From an uncultured Anaerolineaceae bacterium (GTDB taxonomy: Bacteria > Chloroflexota > Anaerolineae > Promineifilales > Promineifilaceae): a stretch of 8,370 nucleotides of DNA. Below are positions 3-8,370 of this stretch, one piece after another; position 1 is the stretch's first letter; each line of letters begins with the position of its first letter. The translations under genes and the position numbers were made by a program. The stretch spans positions 1-8,370 of the forward strand of contig CALBTC010000060.1 in NCBI GenBank assembly GCA_937967805.1. Direction: 5' to 3'. The notes beneath the pieces are model-generated. The model made no database searches and was not told where the DNA came from. It saw only the letters and a program-made list of their open reading frames with translations.

Positions 3-2471
3 ATCGGCGGCAGCGCCTTCTTTTGGCTGCCCGCCATCGCCGAACGCAGCGCCATCCAATTTGGCCGAGCCAGCAGCGCCTGGCCGTTTCTTTACGTCAA
101 CAACTTTTTGCCGCTGGACCAACTACTGGCCCTGCCGCGCAGCGCCGATCCCAGCCTGCTAAACGATTGGCCGCCGCGGGCCCTGGGCAGCCTGCTGCTC
201 ATCATGGCCCTGGCCGGGGCTGGACTGGCGTGGCGACAATCTGCCCGCAATCGTTGGCTGGCTGGCTTTTTATTGGCAGGATTGGCCGGATATGTTTTCC
301 TCACCGTTTCCGGGTCCGAATTTTTGTGGACGGCCGTTCCCCAACTGGCGGCTTTCCAATTCCCCTGGCGCTTTCTGGCACCCGCCAGCTTCCTGGCTGC
401 TTTTTTGTGCGGTGGATTGGGTCTTCAGAAGAGCCAACCTCCCGCAGGTTCCATTCAAGATGATCGTCAAGGGGATAAACCTGCGGGAGGTTTCACTTCT
501 CTGCGTCTCCGCGCCTCTGCGTTAAATCTTTTAGCAATTGTGGTGTTGGCGGTGGGGCATTGGGGCTGGCTGTACCCGGATGTGTGTGATACGCCGGACG
601 ATCTGTCTGTGGCGGGGATGGTGCGTTGGGAGCAGGCAACGCAGACATTGGGCAGCACCGCCAGCGGCGAACTGCTGCCGCGCGATGTGGAAATCGTGCC
701 CGAACCCACCGATCCACCTGCCTGGGAAGCCCGGCTAGACCCAACCACATTACCCGTCGAGGCCACCATCTTGGCTGCCGACTACCGACCGTTGGCTACA
801 ACCGTTGAACTGGAAACGGCTCCTTCGGCAAGCTCAGGACAAGTCGTTCCCTTCCAGGCCACCCTGCGCATCTTCAATTTCCCCGGCTGGCGCGTCACGG
901 TCAACGGCCGTCCCGTGCCCATCATCCCCACTGATCTTGAAGGCTGGATAACGGTGCCGGTGCCGGACGGCCGTTCCACCATCCAGGCTCGCTTCGGCGA
1001 AACGCCGCTGCGCCAGGGGGCGAATGGGGTGTCTCTGGTGAGCCTTGTGTTGCTTTTGGGACTCTTGGGGTTCGGTAAACGGTATTCGGTAATCGGTAAT
1101 CGGTCAACCGTTCACAGCTTACCGATCACCGATTACGGATTACCGTTCACCGTCGCACTCCTGCTCATTGCTGCCAAAATCCTCGTGGTTGACGCGGGGC
1201 ACACGCCGCTGCGGCAGGCTCGTTTGCAGGATGGGGCGTTGGCGAGTGTAGACCAGCCGATGCAGGTGACGCTGGGCACGCCGGACAATCCAGCGCAGGT
1301 GCGTTTGTGGGGTTTGGATGAATGGGAAACGGCCGTTCCCGCCGACAACCCGCTCACCCTTACCCTCTACTGGCAGGCGCTCCAGCCGCTGACGGCTAAT
1401 TACAAAGTGGGGCTCACCTTACTGGACGAAAACGGCGTCCGTTGGTCCGACGAAGGGCTGCGCGACTATCGCTGGCGGCGCAACCCGCCGCCGACAACGA
1501 GTTGGCCCACCGACCAGTACGCCCTCACCGCCTACTTTGTCGACATGCTGCCCGGCACACCGCCCGGCCACTACCAGCTTCAGCTCTCCTTTTTTGAGGA
1601 AGGCAGCCTGACGCCGCTCACTTTTTACAGCGTCGACGGACGGCCGTTTGGCCCGCAGCTTGAATTGGGCACGGTGACGCTGCAACTGCCCGACGATCCC
1701 TGGCCGGCCACGATGATGATGCAGCACCGGCTGGAAATCACAGACGGCACAACGACGCTGCTGGGCAGCAACCTGGACCGCACGGAAGCCACGCCGGGCG
1801 ATCCGCTGCTGGTGACGCTGTTTTGGTCTGCCGACGCGGCAAGCAGTGCCGAACTGAGCCTGGTGGATGAATCCGGGAAAGCGGCCGCCAACTGGCCGGT
1901 GACGTTTCCTGACTACGGCGCGGGCGCGTGGCGCAGCCAGCTGCTTTTGCGCCTGCCGTTGTCTTTGGGGAACGGCCGTTACCAATGGCAGCTCACTTTC
2001 CCCAACGGCTTAACCGTTAACTGGGGCGAACTGGTCATCACCGCCCCTGAGCGTTTGCTGACGATGCCGGAGGTGGATACGGCCGTCAACATCACCCTGA
2101 GCGAGCAGGCTAGCCTGATGGGATTTTCGTTGAAAGATGACGCGGCTGCGGCGGGGAAAACAATCAACCTGGAATTAGTGTGGCAGGCGGTGACGGAAAT
2201 GAGTGAGAGCTACCGGGTGTTTGTGCATGTGTTGGGGGAAGACGGCCGTATCGTGGCCCAGGTAGACGGCTTGCCGGCCAACTGGACCCGGCCCACCAGC
2301 GGCTGGCTCCCCGGCGAATTCATCCGCGACGCCCACAGCCTAACCCTGCCGCCAGAACTCCCCCCCGGCGACTACATGCTGGTCACCGGCCTTTATCTGC
2401 CTAACGGCAGCCGCCTCCAGCAGCCCAACGGCCAGGACCACATTCAGCTTACTACCATTACCATTCCTTGA
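3..2471 (+). CDS. 5'-truncated multi-pass membrane protein, PTPS-related/YfhO-like, with C-terminal beta-sandwich modules
   Basis: The frame is open from base 3, so the gene starts upstream; 822 residues are visible. Residues 1-400 hold about six hydrophobic segments (near 60-76, 85-101, 122-141, 172-191, 343-357 and 380-396). FFWLPAIAER (6-15), FPWRFLAPASF (120-130), the TLGSTASGELLPRDV stretch (215-229) and FPGWRVTVNGRPV (293-305) resemble large Chloroflexota membrane proteins labelled 6-pyruvoyl-tetrahydropterin-synthase-related or YfhO-like. That label is historical, and no pterin enzyme activity is implied. After the last membrane segment come three beta-rich modules (about nt 1240-1690, 1735-2045 and 2085-2471) with the recurring pattern L-x-L-x-W-x-A ... 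PPG-x-Y. They are probably extracytoplasmic. A role in cell-envelope glycan or lipid-linked sugar handling is inference from the family. Repeats at 436-526, 821-844 and 1074-1151 are translated as part of the protein. There is no frameshift in the visible part. The family call is moderately sure; the function is unknown. Confidence 0.75.
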   Translation: MGGSAFFWLPAIAERSAIQFGRASSAWPFLYVNNFLPLDQLLALPRSADPSLLNDWPPRALGSLLLIMALAGAGLAWRQSARNRWLAGFLLAGLAGYVFLTVSGSEFLWTAVPQLAAFQFPWRFLAPASFLAAFLCGGLGLQKSQPPAGSIQDDRQGDKPAGGFTSLRLRASALNLLAIVVLAVGHWGWLYPDVCDTPDDLSVAGMVRWEQATQTLGSTASGELLPRDVEIVPEPTDPPAWEARLDPTTLPVEATILAADYRPLATTVELETAPSASSGQVVPFQATLRIFNFPGWRVTVNGRPVPIIPTDLEGWITVPVPDGRSTIQARFGETPLRQGANGVSLVSLVLLLGLLGFGKRYSVIGNRSTVHSLPITDYGLPFTVALLLIAAKILVVDAGHTPLRQARLQDGALASVDQPMQVTLGTPDNPAQVRLWGLDEWETAVPADNPLTLTLYWQALQPLTANYKVGLTLLDENGVRWSDEGLRDYRWRRNPPPTTSWPTDQYALTAYFVDMLPGTPPGHYQLQLSFFEEGSLTPLTFYSVDGRPFGPQLELGTVTLQLPDDPWPATMMMQHRLEITDGTTTLLGSNLDRTEATPGDPLLVTLFWSADAASSAELSLVDESGKAAANWPVTFPDYGAGAWRSQLLLRLPLSLGNGRYQWQLTFPNGLTVNWGELVITAPERLLTMPEVDTAVNITLSEQASLMGFSLKDDAAAAGKTINLELVWQAVTEMSESYRVFVHVLGEDGRIVAQVDGLPANWTRPTSGWLPGEFIRDAHSLTLPPELPPGDYMLVTGLYLPNGSRLQQPNGQDHIQLTTITIP
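436..526. repeat. In-frame hairpin repeat plus CTCTGCG-type repeat inside the membrane-protein gene
   Basis: A perfect 15-bp inverted repeat has arms at 436-450 (AACCTCCCGCAGGTT) and 478-492. Each arm is itself nearly palindromic (AACCT...AGGTT). Directly after it, 493-526 is a CTCTGCG/CTCCGCG/CTCTGCG run ending in GTTAAA, of a type seen scattered through many bacterial genomes. Together they encode about 30 residues in the loop between two membrane segments. Confidence 0.7.
821..844. repeat. Short interspersed repeat of the TTCGGCAAGCTCAGGACAAG type
   Basis: The stretch at 823-843 matches, from memory, a common small bacterial interspersed sequence (reverse complement CTTGTCCTGAGCTTGCCGAAG). 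It is translated in frame as roughly SASSGQVV, between two beta strands of the extracytoplasmic part of the membrane protein. It has no inverted partner nearby. Confidence 0.5.
1074..1151. repeat. 78-bp inverted repeat built from GGTAATC units, inside the membrane-protein gene
   Basis: Arms of 31 nt at 1074-1104 and 1121-1151 pair at 27 of 31 positions around a 16-nt loop. The left arm contains near-tandem GGTAATC units. The element is read in frame, from GKRYSVIGNR to LPITDYGLPF, and links two membrane segments. Its size and symmetry resemble a small hairpin-type mobile repeat. Confidence 0.75.
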
Positions 2472-2478
2472 GTAGTCT

Positions 2479-2689
2479 AAAAGCTTTTATCACGAATGGA
2501 ACGAATAAACGAATAGCACGAATGAAACAATGAATTTGCACCCGTTTTCATTCCTGGGGTGATAACAGTTCAAGATGATGGATTCCCGCCTTCGCGGGAA
2601 TGACACGCGTAGATTTCGGTAATTTCAGTAAGACAGCAAGAAGGTAAATTCGTGATATTTGTCCATTCGTCATATTCGTGATTGCTTTT
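2479..2689. repeat. Nested composite repeat filling the intergenic gap
   Basis: This block explains nearly all of the gap between the membrane protein and the methyltransferase. The outer arms, about 2479-2524 and 2643-2689, are imperfect inverted copies built of CACGAAT/ACGAAT units and bounded by AAAAGC and GCTTTT. Between them lies a second, unrelated hairpin (2582-2599). The right arm extends into the methyltransferase reading frame and supplies its last codons and stop. No gene is seen in the gap. Confidence 0.65.
2582..2599. repeat. ATTCCCGC-CTTC-GCGGGAAT hairpin repeat
   Basis: A perfect 8-bp stem closes a CTTC loop, within the widespread GGATTCCCGCxTTCGCGGGAATGAC repeat family. No T-tract follows on either strand, so it is not a canonical intrinsic terminator. 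It could still stabilise or end transcripts between these two convergent genes. Confidence 0.7.
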
Positions 2690-3281
2690 TCAGGATGATG
2701 AGTTCTTCGATGTTTTGGCGGGAGGGGACGGAGTCCGGCGGGAACTCGCGGTGCTGCAGATTGAACCCATGTTCAGTGAGCAGTTCAATGACAGCATCGG
2801 GCTGGACGACAAAGGGTGGGCCACCGGGACGCTTGCCGATGGGGAAGGCGAGGCCGATGTAAAGGCCGCCGGGCTTGAGCAGGCGGGCGGCCAGGGCGGC
2901 ATACTCACCGCGCCGGGCCGGATCGATGGCGCAGAAGCAGGTGTATTCGAGCAGGTAATCAAAACGGCCGTTCCAATCCTCACCCAATTCAAAAATATCC
3001 TTCTGCACAATCTGCACCGGGTGGGCTGGATCGTCCAGTTCGCGCATCGCTTCGATGGCTTGGGGCGCAAAATCAACGGCCGTTACCATAAAACCATGCC
3101 GGGCAAACAGCCTTGCATCGTGACCGCGCCCGGCCCCCAGCACAATCATCTCGCCGGGAGGATAGTCGCCGCTGGCCACCAGCCGGGCAAAGACGGGGGT
3201 TGGATGGCCGAGGTCCCAGGGGACACGGCCGTTGGCATAGCTTTCCTGCCAATATTGGGGGGAGTTGGTATCGAGCAGCAT
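2670..3281 (-). CDS. TPMT-like SAM-dependent methyltransferase
   Basis: 203 residues from the ATG at 3281. The protein is a soluble class I methyltransferase of the thiopurine S-methyltransferase/halide-thiol methyltransferase family (PF05724 type). Visible marks are YWQESYANGRVPWDLG (10-25), the SAM-binding loop VLGAGRGHDA (47-56; relatives usually have PGCGRGHDA), acidic D70 after the second strand, EYTCFCAIDPARR (112-124) and LLKPGGL (134-140). Relatives methylate thiols, halides or metalloids; the substrate here cannot be read from sequence. The frame stays open to 3338, but those extra 19 codons are translated from a repeat hairpin and lack family similarity, so the internal ATG is preferred. 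A perfect TATAAT ends 6 nt before it. The last codons and the TGA stop lie within the 2479-2689 repeat. The gene is convergent with the membrane-protein gene and divergent from the oxidoreductase. Confidence 0.88.
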   Translation of the reverse strand: MLLDTNSPQYWQESYANGRVPWDLGHPTPVFARLVASGDYPPGEMIVLGAGRGHDARLFARHGFMVTAVDFAPQAIEAMRELDDPAHPVQIVQKDIFELGEDWNGRFDYLLEYTCFCAIDPARRGEYAALAARLLKPGGLYIGLAFPIGKRPGGPPFVVQPDAVIELLTEHGFNLQHREFPPDSVPSRQNIEELIILKKQSRI

Positions 3282-3287
3282 GTGTCC

Positions 3288-3317
3288 ATTATAACCATGT
3301 GATGCGTGAAGCGTGAA
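3288..3317 (-). promoter_or_regulatory. Promoter of the methyltransferase gene, probably leaderless
   Basis: On the minus strand, TTCACG (3317-3312) is followed after 18 nt by TATAAT (3293-3288), a perfect -10 box. The ATG begins 6 nt later at 3281, so the start of transcription falls at or next to the start codon. There is no purine-rich ribosome site between them. The -35 box lies within the neighbouring repeat. Confidence 0.5.
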
Positions 3318-3344
3318 ACGTGACCAGAACCAGATCACGTTTCA
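3301..3344. repeat. GCGTGAA-type hairpin repeat
   Basis: TGAAACGTGA (3314-3323) and TCACGTTTCA (3335-3344) form a perfect 10-bp inverted repeat around 11 nt. It is preceded by GATGCGTGAAGCGTGA, which repeats the same GCGTGAA unit. The element sits in the gap between the divergent methyltransferase and oxidoreductase genes. Confidence 0.6.
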
Positions 3345-3429: not shown

Positions 3430-3843
3430 ATGTCTACTAAAATACCAGATTCTCACAAAGACTTGTTAAATGCCCCTGTCTACGTGGACGTCGTCACTGT
3501 AATGCCGGACGGGCAGCCACAGGCTTCTGTGGTATGGTGCAGTTATGATGGCGAACATGTGTTGGTGAATACGGCCGTTGGCCGCCAAAAAGAGAAAAAC
3601 CTGAGCGAGCGTCCCATGGCCACCGTCCTCGCCGTCGATCCGGAGAATCCGTTCCGCTACATCGAAGTGCGCGGCAATGTTGAACTCAGCAAAGAGGGAG
3701 CGCTGGACCACATCAACCAGCTGGCCAAAGCGTATCGTGGTGCCGACAGCTATTATGGCGGCGTGCAGCCGGCAGAAATGGCCCAAAAAGAAACCCGGAT
3801 CATATGCAAAATTAAACCCACCCACGTAAACGCCTTTGGCTAA
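3430..3843 (+). CDS. PPOX-class F420/FMN-dependent oxidoreductase (split-barrel flavin reductase family)
   Basis: 137 residues, the usual length for single-domain split-barrel proteins of the pyridoxamine-phosphate-oxidase superfamily, F420-binding (Rv1155-like, FDOR-B) branch. Family marks in order: IPDSHKDLLNAP (5-16), VMPDGQPQASVVWCSYDGEHVLVNTA split into strands over residues 24-49, the cofactor-phosphate loop GRQKEKNLSERP (51-62), AVDPENPFRYIEVRGNVEL (68-86) and the helix DHINQLAKAYRG (93-104). The protein is cytosolic and probably a homodimer with cofactor at the interface. Relatives reduce diverse electron-poor substrates with F420H2 or use FMN; which cofactor applies cannot be settled here. 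AAAAGGAG at 3418-3425 is a strong ribosome site 4 nt before the ATG. The gene has its own promoter, operator-like palindrome and terminator, so it is a one-gene unit that may be inducible. Confidence 0.88.
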   Translation: MSTKIPDSHKDLLNAPVYVDVVTVMPDGQPQASVVWCSYDGEHVLVNTAVGRQKEKNLSERPMATVLAVDPENPFRYIEVRGNVELSKEGALDHINQLAKAYRGADSYYGGVQPAEMAQKETRIICKIKPTHVNAFG

Positions 3844-3894: not shown

Positions 3895-3923
3895 TTGGCG
3901 AATCAGGCAAGGCGCATTATCAT
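3895..3923 (+). promoter_or_regulatory. Promoter of the S9 peptidase gene, probably leaderless
   Basis: TTGGCG (3895-3900), a 17-nt spacer and TATCAT (3918-3923) match sigma-70-type boxes at 4/6 and 5/6 with ideal spacing. Only 7 nt separate the -10 box from the ATG at 3931. No Shine-Dalgarno sequence lies in between. The promoter starts just after the terminator T-tract of the previous gene. Confidence 0.45.
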
Positions 3924-3930
3924 TCATCCC

Positions 3931-5880
3931 ATGTGTGCAAAAAAGGTAGCGCCGTACGGCTCGTGGAAATCCCCAATCAGCTCAGACCTCATTGTGGCCG
4001 GATCGATTGGCTTGGGGCAATTGAAGGTTGAGGGTGATGCCGTTTTTTGGACCGAGGGACGGCCGTCTGAAAACGGCCGCAACGCATTGGTACGCTGGAC
4101 ACCTGAAAACGGCATCGAGGAGCTGTCTGCCGCTGGGTTTAACGTGCGCAGCCGCGTCCATGAATATGGCGGCGGGGCCTACGCTGTCCACGACGACACC
4201 ATCTACTTCACCAACTTCGTTGATCAGCGACTGTACATGCAGTATCCGCACAGCGAGCCGGAACCACTCACCGCCAATGAGCCGCTTCGCTTTACCGACG
4301 GCGTGGTTGATCCCCAGCGCGGCCGCCTCTTCTGCATTCGCGAGGACCACACCTCGTTCGGACAGGAGCCCAGCAACACCCTGGCCAGCCTGAACCTGGA
4401 CAGCCACGATGAAAGCGGCACCGTCCTGGCCGAAGGGTACAATTTTTATGCCTCGCCGCGCCTCAGCCCAAACGGCCGTCAACTGGCCTGGCTCTGTTGG
4501 AACCACCCCAACATGCCCTGGGACGGCACCGAACTGTGGGTGGCCGACCTGGACGAGACGGGCACAGCGCTGAGCAATCTCACCCTGGTGGCCGGCGGCC
4601 CCATCGAATCCATTTTCCAGCCGGAATGGTCGCCGGCAGGTGAGCTCCATTTTGTGTCTGACCGCACCGACTGGTGGAATTTGTACCGCTGGCGCGAGGG
4701 CAAGGTGCAGCCGCTGTACCCGATGGATGCCGAATTTGGCCGGCCGCAGTGGGTGTTTGGCATGTCTACGTACGGCTTTGAAGATGCCGACAGCATTATT
4801 TGCACCTACACGCGAAACGGCCGTTGGCACCTGGCCCGCCTCAATACAAGAACAAACCAGTTGACCCGCATCAAAACACCGTACACCGCCATTAGCTATT
4901 TGCAGGTGAGCAGCGGTAAGGCCTGCTTTATTGGCGGCTCATCAACCCGGCCCAGCGCCGTCGTGCAACTCGATCTGCAAACGCATGAATGCCGGGTACT
5001 GCGCCAATCCACAGACTTGACCATAGACACCGCTTACCTCTCCGTCCCGGAACCGATAGAATTCCCCACAGAAAACGGCCTCACGGCCCACGCCATCTAC
5101 TACCCGCCGCAGAATCGTGACTTTGCTGCCCCAGAGGGGGAACTGCCGCCGCTACTGGTGCTCAGCCACGGCGGGCCTACCAGCGCCACGGACACCACGT
5201 TTAGCCTTAGCAAGCAATATTGGACCAGCCGCGGCTTTGCCGTTTTGGACGTGAACTATGGCGGCAGTTCGGGATACGGCCGTGCCTACCGGCAGCGGCT
5301 CAACGGGCAGTGGGGCATTGTTGATGTGCAAGATTGCATCAATGGTGCCAAACACCTGGTGGCACAAGGGCTGGTCGACGGCAGCCGGTTGGCCATTCGT
5401 GGCGGCAGCGCCGGTGGCTACACCACACTGTGCGCGCTCACCTTTTACGATACGTTCAGCGCCGGTGCCAGCCACTTCGGCGTTAGCGATGTAGAAGCGC
5501 TGGCCCGCGACACCCACAAATTTGAGTCGCGCTACCTGGACAGCATGATTGGTCCCTACCCCGAAGCCAAAGAAACCTACGTGGCCCGTTCGCCCATCCA
5601 CTTTACAGACCAGATCAACTGCCCCCTCATTTTATTCCAGGGATTAGAAGATAAAGTGGTGCCGCCCAGCCAGGCCGAAACGATGTTTGAAGCGGTAAAA
5701 GCCAAAGGCATCCCCGTAGCCTACGTCGCCTTCCCCGGCGAGCAGCATGGCTTCCGCAGCGCCGAAAACATCAAGCGTACGCTGGACGGCGAGCTTTATT
5801 TCTACGGCCAAATCTTCGGCTTCGAACTGGCTGATCCCGTCAAACCCATCGACATCGAAAACCTGCCAAACTCTGCCTAA
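3931..5880 (+). CDS. S9 family serine peptidase (prolyl oligopeptidase/acylaminoacyl-peptidase type)
   Basis: 649 residues, the normal length for the family. Residues 1 to about 390 form the beta-propeller, with [12 protein letters not shown] (75-86) and [10 protein letters not shown] (243-252) typical of acylaminoacyl-peptidase-like members. From about 400 is the alpha/beta-hydrolase catalytic domain: HGGP (413-416, oxyanion region), nucleophile Ser493 in GGSAGGY, Asp574 in GLEDKVVPP and His606 in GEQHGF. The triad is complete, so it should be active on short peptides, probably removing N-terminal residues or dipeptides. No signal peptide is seen, so it is predicted cytosolic, serving peptide turnover. 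The frame is open upstream to a TTG at 3895, but that codon lies in the predicted -35 box. ATG 3931 gives the expected N-terminus ([11 protein letters not shown]). It converges with the RelA/SpoT homologue. Confidence 0.93.
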
Positions 5881-5890
5881 AACCTCTGCT

Positions 5891-5996
5891 TGTCATTCTG
5901 ACCGAAGGGAAGAATCCCTCTGAAGATTATCCTGCAAAAGCTATGCCTGCGAAGGATAATGTCCGTAGGGATTCTTCGTTTCACTCAGAATGACGA
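5891..5996. repeat. 106-bp nested hairpin element between convergent genes
   Basis: The outer arms 5891-5919 and 5967-5996 are imperfect inverted copies of the well-known GTCATTCTGAxxGAAxxxAAGAATCCCT repeat. Inside them, ATTATCCT (5926-5933) pairs with AGGATAAT (5953-5960). A transcript from either strand would fold into one long stem. On the plus strand TTTT follows at 5997-6000, so it may also end transcription of the peptidase gene. Confidence 0.65.
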
Positions 5997-6095: not shown

Positions 6096-8324
6096 TTATT
6101 CGGGGCGGTAAAACGAATCGGCGGGCAGCAGAGGGTCTGGCTCTTCAAACGAATCCACAATTTCTACAAAAAAGACGTTGGCCAGGGCCCGCATCTGGTG
6201 CAGCACGCGCACCAATTGGCGTGGGCGCAGCACTTCGATGGCCAGATGAATATGCACCTCATTAGGCGCGCCCGGCTCCGGGGTGTGGATGTAAGCGATA
6301 TTTATATCTTCATCATTCATCAACTGGGTGATTTCAAAAAGGAGACCGGGGCGATCATACACCTTGACTTGCAGTTTGATCTGGCGCACCTCGCGTGGGG
6401 CGGCTTCCCCCCAGGCCAGCTTCAGCTTGCGCCCGGCCAGCCGGCCAGGATTCAAGGTATGGCAGCGCTGGTGATGGACGGTGACGCCCCCATCGCGCCG
6501 TAAAAAGCCGATGATAGCATCCGGCGGCCGGGGGTTACAGCTGCCGCAGAGGCGAATTTCGCGCCCTTCGGCCTGGGTCACCACAAACTGATCGCCATTT
6601 TCAGAGTAGACGACCTTGCCCAGGTGGCGCGCCGGGCCCTGGGACCACATCTCTTCGACCAGCTTGGTGGTAACGGCCGTTGGCAATAACTCGGCCCGGC
6701 CCAGCTCGTAATACATATCGCGGGTGTTGTTATAGCCAAAGGCATGGGCCACCCGCTCGTGCGGGTAGCTGTGCAGCCCCAGCATGGCCAGTTCATCTTG
6801 CAGCAGTTGGAGGCCCTGGTAAACGGCCGTTTGCGGCGACAACCGTCTAAACCAGCGGCGGGCGTGGCTGCGGGCGTAATTGGTCATGATGTAACCCAAA
6901 TCTTCATCCAGCCAGGCCCGCTGCGGCTGCGCCTTCTCCTTCTTCATGATGCGCACCTTCATGCCGTCATGCAGCGGCTTGTTCAGCGGGTACAGCATAT
7001 CGTTCACGTAGGCCGAATGGCATTGATCGCCCAACCCGGTGTGGATAGCGTAGGCAAAATCAAGCGCCGTGGCTCCTTTGGCCAGTTCAATGGCGTCCCC
7101 ACGCGGGGTAAATACCCGAATCTGCTGCCGGAACACATCTTCCACCACGCCGCGCACACCGGCCGTGGGGTCTTGTGGCTCTACGTTGATGTTTTCATTA
7201 ATATTCTCGAAAAAAGCTTCCATTCGGCCGGCCACACCGCTGGTCCACATGGGTGTATCGGCATACAGCCAACGGGCCAACACCCCCACTTCAGACACTT
7301 TGTCCATCGCCTCTGTGCGCAAGCGCAGCTTCAAATGCTGTCCATTGGTATGCACCACCGTCGTGTGCAGGGAACGATAAAGATTGTCGCGGGCCACGGC
7401 CACATAATCATCAAACGTGCCCGGCACCGGCTGCCAAAGCTGATGCAAGTATCCCAACGCCCGATAGCAAGATTGCCAACTGTCCATCAATACCACCAGG
7501 CGCATCGTTTTATCTACCTCGTAAAACGAGGCAGCATTCTCGCACAAATCCTGGTACACGCTGTAAATATTTTCTGGCGCTAAAAATACGCGACGTACGT
7601 CCAAATCTGCCTGGAGCAAGCAGTCGAATATCTGGCCGCTAATCAACTGATACTCTTCTTGCTGTTCGTGATGGATTTGCGTCAGGCGCTCGCGAATAAT
7701 CTTGTGCGCATCCGGGTCAAGCACTTCCAGGGAGAGCGATTCCAGCTCATTTTTGAGCCACCAGATACCAAGACGGTTGGCTAGAGGCGCATAAACGGAC
7801 AAGGTTTCTTTGGCTTTGTAAACCTGGCGCGAATGGGGCGTAGCTTTAATTGTGCGCATGTTGTGCAGCCGGTCAAACAGCTTGATGATGACGGCGCGCA
7901 CGTCATTGGTCATGGCCCCCAGCAGTTTATGCAGGGTGAGGTCTTCAATTTCTTGTTTAGACAGCTCTTTGCGGTTGGCAAAGCCTTTGGTGACGTCCTT
8001 CAGCTTGGTGACGCCATCTACCAGGCGGGCCACTTCTGGGCCAAACTGGCTCTCAATTTCATCAATGGTGACCCTGGTGTCTTCGGCCACATCATGCAGC
8101 AGGGCGGCAACCAAAGCGGGCGCATCCAGCATATATTCAGAAATGTAGTAGGCAACAGTCAGCGGGTGCGTAAAAAAAAGCTCACCGGACTTACGGCGTT
8201 GTTCTCCGTGTTCCCGGCGAGCGAGGGCAAAGGCTTCCTGCACACAAATGCGGTCCTCAGCACTAAGGTACTTGTTAACCTGCTCAAAGAACTGCCTACC
8301 GTCAGACGCAATGGTATCGGTCAT
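6096..8324 (-). CDS. RelA/SpoT homologue with intact HD hydrolase and degenerate (p)ppGpp synthetase domain
   Basis: 742 residues, full length for a long RSH stringent-response protein. Domains: HD hydrolase (about 25-200) with R44, H53, H77-D78, E81-D82, and D151/N155 in DRLHNMRT; synthetase-like region (about 240-355); TGS (about 402-462) with AIHT, whose His contacts tRNA in relatives; helical region (470-515); zinc-finger-like CGSCNPRPPD ... HHQRC (593-621); and ACT (about 648-720). Aligned by eye without gaps to bacterial Rel, the synthetase lacks its key residues: RPK of the G-loop is A249-P-E251, the following Lys is D259, catalytic Asp is K272, and Glu-x-Gln of ExQIRT is K332-x-R334. 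Y316 remains. The likely role is cytosolic hydrolysis of (p)ppGpp under ribosome/tRNA and ACT control, with synthesis by another enzyme. A relA or spoT symbol is withheld. There is no ribosome site, and a -10-like hexamer lies just before the ATG. Confidence 0.92.
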   Translation of the reverse strand: MTDTIASDGRQFFEQVNKYLSAEDRICVQEAFALARREHGEQRRKSGELFFTHPLTVAYYISEYMLDAPALVAALLHDVAEDTRVTIDEIESQFGPEVARLVDGVTKLKDVTKGFANRKELSKQEIEDLTLHKLLGAMTNDVRAVIIKLFDRLHNMRTIKATPHSRQVYKAKETLSVYAPLANRLGIWWLKNELESLSLEVLDPDAHKIIRERLTQIHHEQQEEYQLISGQIFDCLLQADLDVRRVFLAPENIYSVYQDLCENAASFYEVDKTMRLVVLMDSWQSCYRALGYLHQLWQPVPGTFDDYVAVARDNLYRSLHTTVVHTNGQHLKLRLRTEAMDKVSEVGVLARWLYADTPMWTSGVAGRMEAFFENINENINVEPQDPTAGVRGVVEDVFRQQIRVFTPRGDAIELAKGATALDFAYAIHTGLGDQCHSAYVNDMLYPLNKPLHDGMKVRIMKKEKAQPQRAWLDEDLGYIMTNYARSHARRWFRRLSPQTAVYQGLQLLQDELAMLGLHSYPHERVAHAFGYNNTRDMYYELGRAELLPTAVTTKLVEEMWSQGPARHLGKVVYSENGDQFVVTQAEGREIRLCGSCNPRPPDAIIGFLRRDGGVTVHHQRCHTLNPGRLAGRKLKLAWGEAAPREVRQIKLQVKVYDRPGLLFEITQLMNDEDINIAYIHTPEPGAPNEVHIHLAIEVLRPRQLVRVLHQMRALANVFFVEIVDSFEEPDPLLPADSFYRPE

Positions 8325-8360: not shown

Positions 8361-8370
8361 ACTTTTTTAT

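Follow-up and report, generated by a model that had tools for sequence, protein, structure and literature searches.

A long RelA/SpoT homologue of Chloroflexota whose hydrolase site is intact and whose synthetase site is replaced, and its probable synthetase-type partner in related genomes

The window (the whole stretch of DNA analysed, 8,370 nt from an uncultured Anaerolineaceae bacterium of the Chloroflexota) carries a gene for a long RelA/SpoT homologue (RSH). The translated sequence displays a complete site for hydrolysis of (p)ppGpp, the starvation signal of bacteria, and a synthetase domain in which a single tested residue of the active site is left. Coordinates of the gene, its domains and its neighbours are collected in Table 1.

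Active sites of the RSH encoded in the window

The predicted protein gives matches to HD_4, RelA_SpoT, TGS and ACT_4, all over their Pfam cut-offs. It belongs to the long RSHs, with a match to TIGR00691 of 526.7 bits (cut-off 499.2). A PADLOC link to RmrT is a weak match of 20.3 bits and was taken as shared TGS-region similarity, not as a sign of a defence function.

The hydrolase site was read at eight residues, in Bacillus subtilis numbering R44, H53, H77, D78, E81, D82, D144 and N148. All eight are present (RHHDEDDN). The HDxxED motif, which the initial annotation of this DNA had described as retained, reads HDVAED, and the site around it is complete.

Seven residues of B. subtilis Rel (6yxa) were used for the synthetase site: R241, K243, S247, K251, D264, E324 and Q326. 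The window protein shows A249 for R241, E251 for K243, D259 for K251, K272 for D264, K332 for E324 and R334 for Q326. Only S247 is left (as S255), and by these residues the protein does not fit a bifunctional Rel[HS]. The RPK of the G-loop reads A249 P250 E251 and the ExQIRT motif reads KxRLRT. All tested positions show a constant offset of 8 between the two proteins, which means that the synthetase domain is aligned without a gap. These are the replacements that the initial annotation had listed from an alignment by eye, and the interval it gave for them corresponds exactly to codons 249–334 on the minus strand. Comparison with B. subtilis Rel and with Chloroflexota RSHs, which that annotation had proposed, shows that the family is uniform at the replaced positions, a few exceptions apart. 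Together with the gap-free alignment this speaks against a placement of the catalytic residues elsewhere in the domain, with a small doubt on account of D271 (see below).

The replacements are not peculiar to this sequence. Among the best 120 of 4442 homologues above the cut-off, none has all seven synthetase residues together; position 332 is Lys in 120, 334 is Arg in 119, 259 is Asp in 118 and 251 is Glu in 117. The exceptions are P0099, which retains K251 and Q334, and P0117, which retains Asp at 272. The hydrolase site is intact in all 116 that are readable. Because the same replacements recur across these homologues, chance or sequencing error can be set aside. Where taxa are named, they are Chloroflexota groups (Ardenticatenaceae, Anaerolineae, Chloroflexi, Promineifilaceae). 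Several of these sequences (P0002, P0006, P0011 and others) have source names of bifunctional synthetase/hydrolase although the synthetase site is lost; for close relatives such as P0002 the present analysis corrects the naming.

Distribution of the hydrolase-type RSH and its partner

The RSH genes of one GTDB order (56 genomes) were read and their residues counted. RSHs of the window type, termed paralogue A, are found in 54 of the 56 genomes. All eight hydrolase residues are present in 52 of 52 readable copies, and all seven synthetase residues in none of 54. The Arg and the Lys of the G-loop are lost in every copy (54/54 each), and a Lys or an Arg stands for the catalytic Glu in 54/54. Arg 277, which does not vary among canonical Rels, is lost as well.

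As a control, 43 canonical Rels that do not belong to the order (30 from the class, 6 from the class with an insertion and 7 from the phylum, where a search of 201 genomes was limited to best matches) are intact at all eight and all seven positions. It should be noted that the 30 class Rels (L016–L045) are the top-scoring synthetase matches; their intact synthetase is therefore partly a result of selection, and their HD domain is the unselected control.

The initial annotation had predicted that a separate synthetase should exist in the genome and had proposed a search for another RSH. In the genomes of relatives this search yielded a second long RSH, termed paralogue B. It has an intact synthetase site in four of the five genomes of the close relatives of the window, with canonical synthetase profile scores of 132–134 bits; the fifth genome, G002, is fragmentary at this point. 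In the order as a whole, paralogue B is present in 53 of 56 genomes and both paralogues together in 51. G002, G126 and G145 have A without B, and G141 and G168 have B without A. Some of these absences may be assembly gaps, since in G002 a fragment of an HD domain was also seen where a contig ends.

Paralogue B is RelA[hS]-like: its synthetase site is intact in 52/52 readable copies and its hydrolase site in 0/50. E81, D82 and N148 are mostly replaced, while H77 is kept in 40 and D78 in 46 of 53. The split is reciprocal, since B has lost hydrolase residues and A has lost synthetase residues. Small HD_4 proteins (150–290 aa, above the cut-off) occur in 16 of the 56 genomes only, which leaves paralogue A as the sole clear hydrolase with an intact site in most of the order.

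A third type of long RSH was also seen in the order (L160, 2067–5384 +; L161; L159), in which the Glu of HDxxED is Lys and the synthetase is degenerate. L160 (1106 aa) carries a fused AAA/ATPase_2-like domain at its C-terminus, whose PADLOC match is weak. L162 and L149 are shorter open frames of this type, and other matches in the order are about 1100 aa long. This type is possibly a dead RSH that serves as the sensor of an ATPase. L089 (1262–4660 −, in G003) is more distant; it has 1133 aa with RelA_SpoT-like, TGS, ACT and AAA-like parts and gives no HD match.

Interpretation and evolutionary history

The protein in the window is very probably a monofunctional (p)ppGpp hydrolase of long-RSH type ([Hs]), which would form part of a SpoT[Hs]/RelA[hS]-like pair of independent origin. 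The hydrolase-only long RSH of the initial annotation, and its independence from that of the Moraxellaceae, are supported as far as sequence can tell.

The two long paralogues have lost opposite halves of the ancestral Rel. In [Hs] the G-loop residues that bind ATP are gone, as are the Glu and the Gln of the catalytic site, and its Asp is absent or shifted by one residue. The [hS] partner would make (p)ppGpp and the window protein would remove it. The non-catalytic synthetase domain may be kept as a folded regulatory or structural part that couples the TGS domain, the zinc finger and the ACT domain to the hydrolase.

The domain is predicted to keep its fold. D306, N314, Y316, H320 and R336 are retained in 54/54 copies of paralogue A, in distinction to the ATP-side and catalytic positions. 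In the SpoT of Acinetobacter baumannii the residue matching Y316 is Asn and GDP is not bound, according to PMC9974481. Because the guanine-site residues including Y316 are kept here, and the Tyr is lost in that non-binding protein, sensing of a guanine nucleotide by the dead domain can be put forward as a hypothesis; these residues could instead be retained for the fold. The new charges are fixed, and they point to an ATP side that may be held shut by salt bridges: E251 and D259, opposite K332 and R334, would probably keep the empty side closed.

In the C-terminal half, H428 of the TGS domain is present in 53/53 of the paralogue A family. The zinc finger that the initial annotation had called retained has its Cys2-His-Cys set in an altered form, with the first Cys moved: 53 of 53 readable A copies show C593-x-x-C596, where canonical Rels have an adjacent pair at 595–596 (30/30). 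The displaced Cys may change contacts with the ribosome or with tRNA.

Hydrolase-only long RSHs have already been described in Moraxellaceae, and a RelA/SpoT pair in beta/gamma-Proteobacteria. The A. baumannii SpoT[Hs] (PDB 7qpr) has a working HD domain and a dead, folded synthetase, and stands beside a synthetase-only RelA (PMC9974481, PMC3153485). Judged from sequence, the window protein resembles it in being a long RSH with an intact HD site, a dead synthetase domain predicted to be folded and, in related genomes, a putative synthetase-only partner. It differs in the guanosine Tyr. Partner B resembles the RelA[hS] of beta/gamma-Proteobacteria in its intact synthetase and degenerate HD domain (E. 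coli RelA was aligned), but retains more of the HD framework and groups with Chloroflexota Rels. Bifunctional Rel[HS] proteins share domain order, HD site and fold with the window protein, which has lost the synthetase site. Small alarmone hydrolases (Mesh1, RelH) are unlike it, being without synthetase, TGS and ACT domains. A search of openly licensed papers found none that describes a long RSH of Chloroflexota as split or as hydrolase-only.

Several observations weigh against the assignment as a hydrolase-only member of such a pair. The shortened alpha6-alpha7 loop and Core of SpoT[Hs] were not seen, the medians being 32 and 51 residues vs 31 and 50 in 30 canonical Rels, measured with crude anchors. 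An Asp, D271, stands one residue ahead of the catalytic position in the window protein and in 43 of 54 copies in the order, and might conceivably function with the register shifted; four of the 54 (L124, L116, L126 and L130) have Asp at the catalytic position itself. The genomes are mostly metagenome assemblies of which completeness is not given. The dN/dS (nonsynonymous to synonymous rate ratio) of the pseudo-synthetase domain, 0.020–0.047 in close pairs, indicates purifying selection, but dS is near saturation and the values are rough.

D271 leads to the question of whether the domain is still catalytic with altered residues, forming (p)ppGpp or another pyrophosphorylated nucleotide by way of D271 and the guanine site. 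The unbroken retention of the guanine-site residues would fit, as would the conservation of the new residues E251, D259, K332 and R334 themselves. However, the Arg and Lys of the G-loop and Arg 277 are gone and the catalytic Glu is a basic residue throughout, and no synthetase is known to lack all four of these; activity of this kind is very improbable. That the gene is decaying, its synthetase domain drifting while the partner covers the function, is scarcely credible. Loss of the catalytic residues and long branches in the trees would be expected from decay; the low dN/dS, the fixation of the replaced residues and the presence of open frames in 54 of 56 genomes would not.

The class was searched with the window protein (396 genomes). 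Outside the order, two long matches were found in seven genomes; in one of these (G409) they are two pieces of canonical Rel. Each of the remaining six carries an RSH whose HD is intact and whose synthetase is degenerate (L195–L200), with replacements different from those of paralogue A. In four of the six (G007, G453, G534, G581) both domains of the second RSH are intact; in G556 its D82 is Glu, and in G469 the HD motif is lacking. The [Hs]-like RSH of G007 (L199/L164), beside an intact Rel, has a long branch of its own.

Trees (LG+C20) were made from 50 of 95 aligned RSHs, for the full length and for the C-terminal half. They do not include the near-copies L196 and L192, L199 with its long branch, the type fused to an ATPase, or many of the near relatives. 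Paralogue A is one clade (support 100/99 full length, 96/89 C-terminal half). Four of the [Hs]-like genes found beyond the order make up a second clade, E2, which joins A with 100/99 and 99/96, respectively, and with 76 only in a quick tree. Paralogue B is one clade amid Chloroflexota Rels (80/97 and 96/92). E. coli SpoT lies elsewhere than paralogue A, but on a long branch and with no Moraxellaceae sequence among the taxa, and the position of E. coli RelA has no support. A single duplication within the order, with A and B as sole sisters, is disfavoured (approximately unbiased (AU) test, p = 0.035, C-terminal half); a clade of A, B and E2 is not rejected (AU p = 0.298, C-terminal half).

The same end state could have arisen by transfer of the [Hs] gene into Chloroflexota from another phylum, which is unlikely. 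A and its [Hs]-like sister branch from five other genomes do stand together apart from all sampled Chloroflexota Rels (the C-terminal-half support given above), in trees whose sequences from other phyla are E. coli RelA and SpoT only. Against this, the taxa named on the homologues are Chloroflexota groups, and long branches can give a false deep position.

For the pair of independent origin, the simplest reading of the trees is an old [Hs] copy with later loss of the partner's hydrolase, in B and again in G469; given the long branches this is provisional. In Proteobacteria the order was the reverse, the HD of RelA being lost first and the synthetase of Moraxellaceae SpoT later (PMC9974481). 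A fuller and more speculative proposal, which at present is doubtful, is a complete and independent RelA/SpoT-type split across a Chloroflexota order in the reverse of the proteobacterial sequence. The synthetase of one copy would have died first while the other copy stayed bifunctional, a state that three related genomes still seem to show, and the partner's hydrolase would have died later, at least twice. The dead domain with its guanine pocket would be a sensor of GDP, GTP or (p)ppGpp that gates the hydrolase, which would be impossible for A. baumannii SpoT.

A second reciprocal split in another phylum, if true, would allow one to ask if the division of alarmone functions obeys the same structural rules twice. 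Two rules proposed on the basis of A. baumannii SpoT, the short loops and the lost guanosine Tyr, do not seem to apply to these proteins. The evolutionary path is made testable by relatives that stand at three stages: a bifunctional Rel by itself, a Rel with [Hs], and [hS] with [Hs].

Genomic surroundings

Table 1. Features of the window, with the RSH gene and its parts listed first.
Feature	Position	Strand	Remarks
Long RSH gene, intact hydrolase and replaced synthetase site	6096..8324	-	742 aa, ATG start
HD (ppGpp hydrolase) domain	7761..8234	-	residues 31-188; HD_4 157.1 bits; all 8 tested active-site residues
HDVAED motif	8079..8096	-	residues 77-82
Pseudo-synthetase domain	7257..7607	-	residues about 240-356; RelA_SpoT profile 252-355
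Replaced synthetase site	7323..7580	-	residues 249-334: A249/E251, D259, K272, K332, R334; kept D306, N314, Y316, H320
TGS domain	6942..7121	-	residues 402-461, includes H428
Zinc-finger-like C593-x-x-C596...H617...C621	6462..6548	-	residues 593-621; putative zinc binding
ACT domain	6165..6383	-	residues 648-720; ACT_4 37.8 bits
Probable stop codon of upstream response-regulator gene	8367..8369	-	judged by its identity to L001/L003, in which this stretch trails the regulator; gene cut by window end
S9 peptidase gene, convergent, downstream of RSH	3895-5880	+	
822-aa open frame	3-2471	+	no Pfam match
TPMT-like methyltransferase	2670-3338	-	
F420-dependent PPOX-class oxidoreductase	3430-3843	+	TIGR03618

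A scan for promoters and terminators was at background (3 and 3 found vs 1.8 and 3.3 in shuffled sequences). Of the 48 paralogue A loci for which 300 nt or more of upstream DNA is present, 43 have a response-regulator gene immediately upstream and on the same strand; among 103 loci from the other RSH groups there is none. The regulator consists of a receiver and Trans_reg_C; its best NCBIfam match is RpaB, below the cut-off of that model. Transcription of the [Hs] gene is probably tied to this regulator. In L003 it is located at 5225–5956 +, with FHA, DnaJ-VWA and PP2C genes further upstream.
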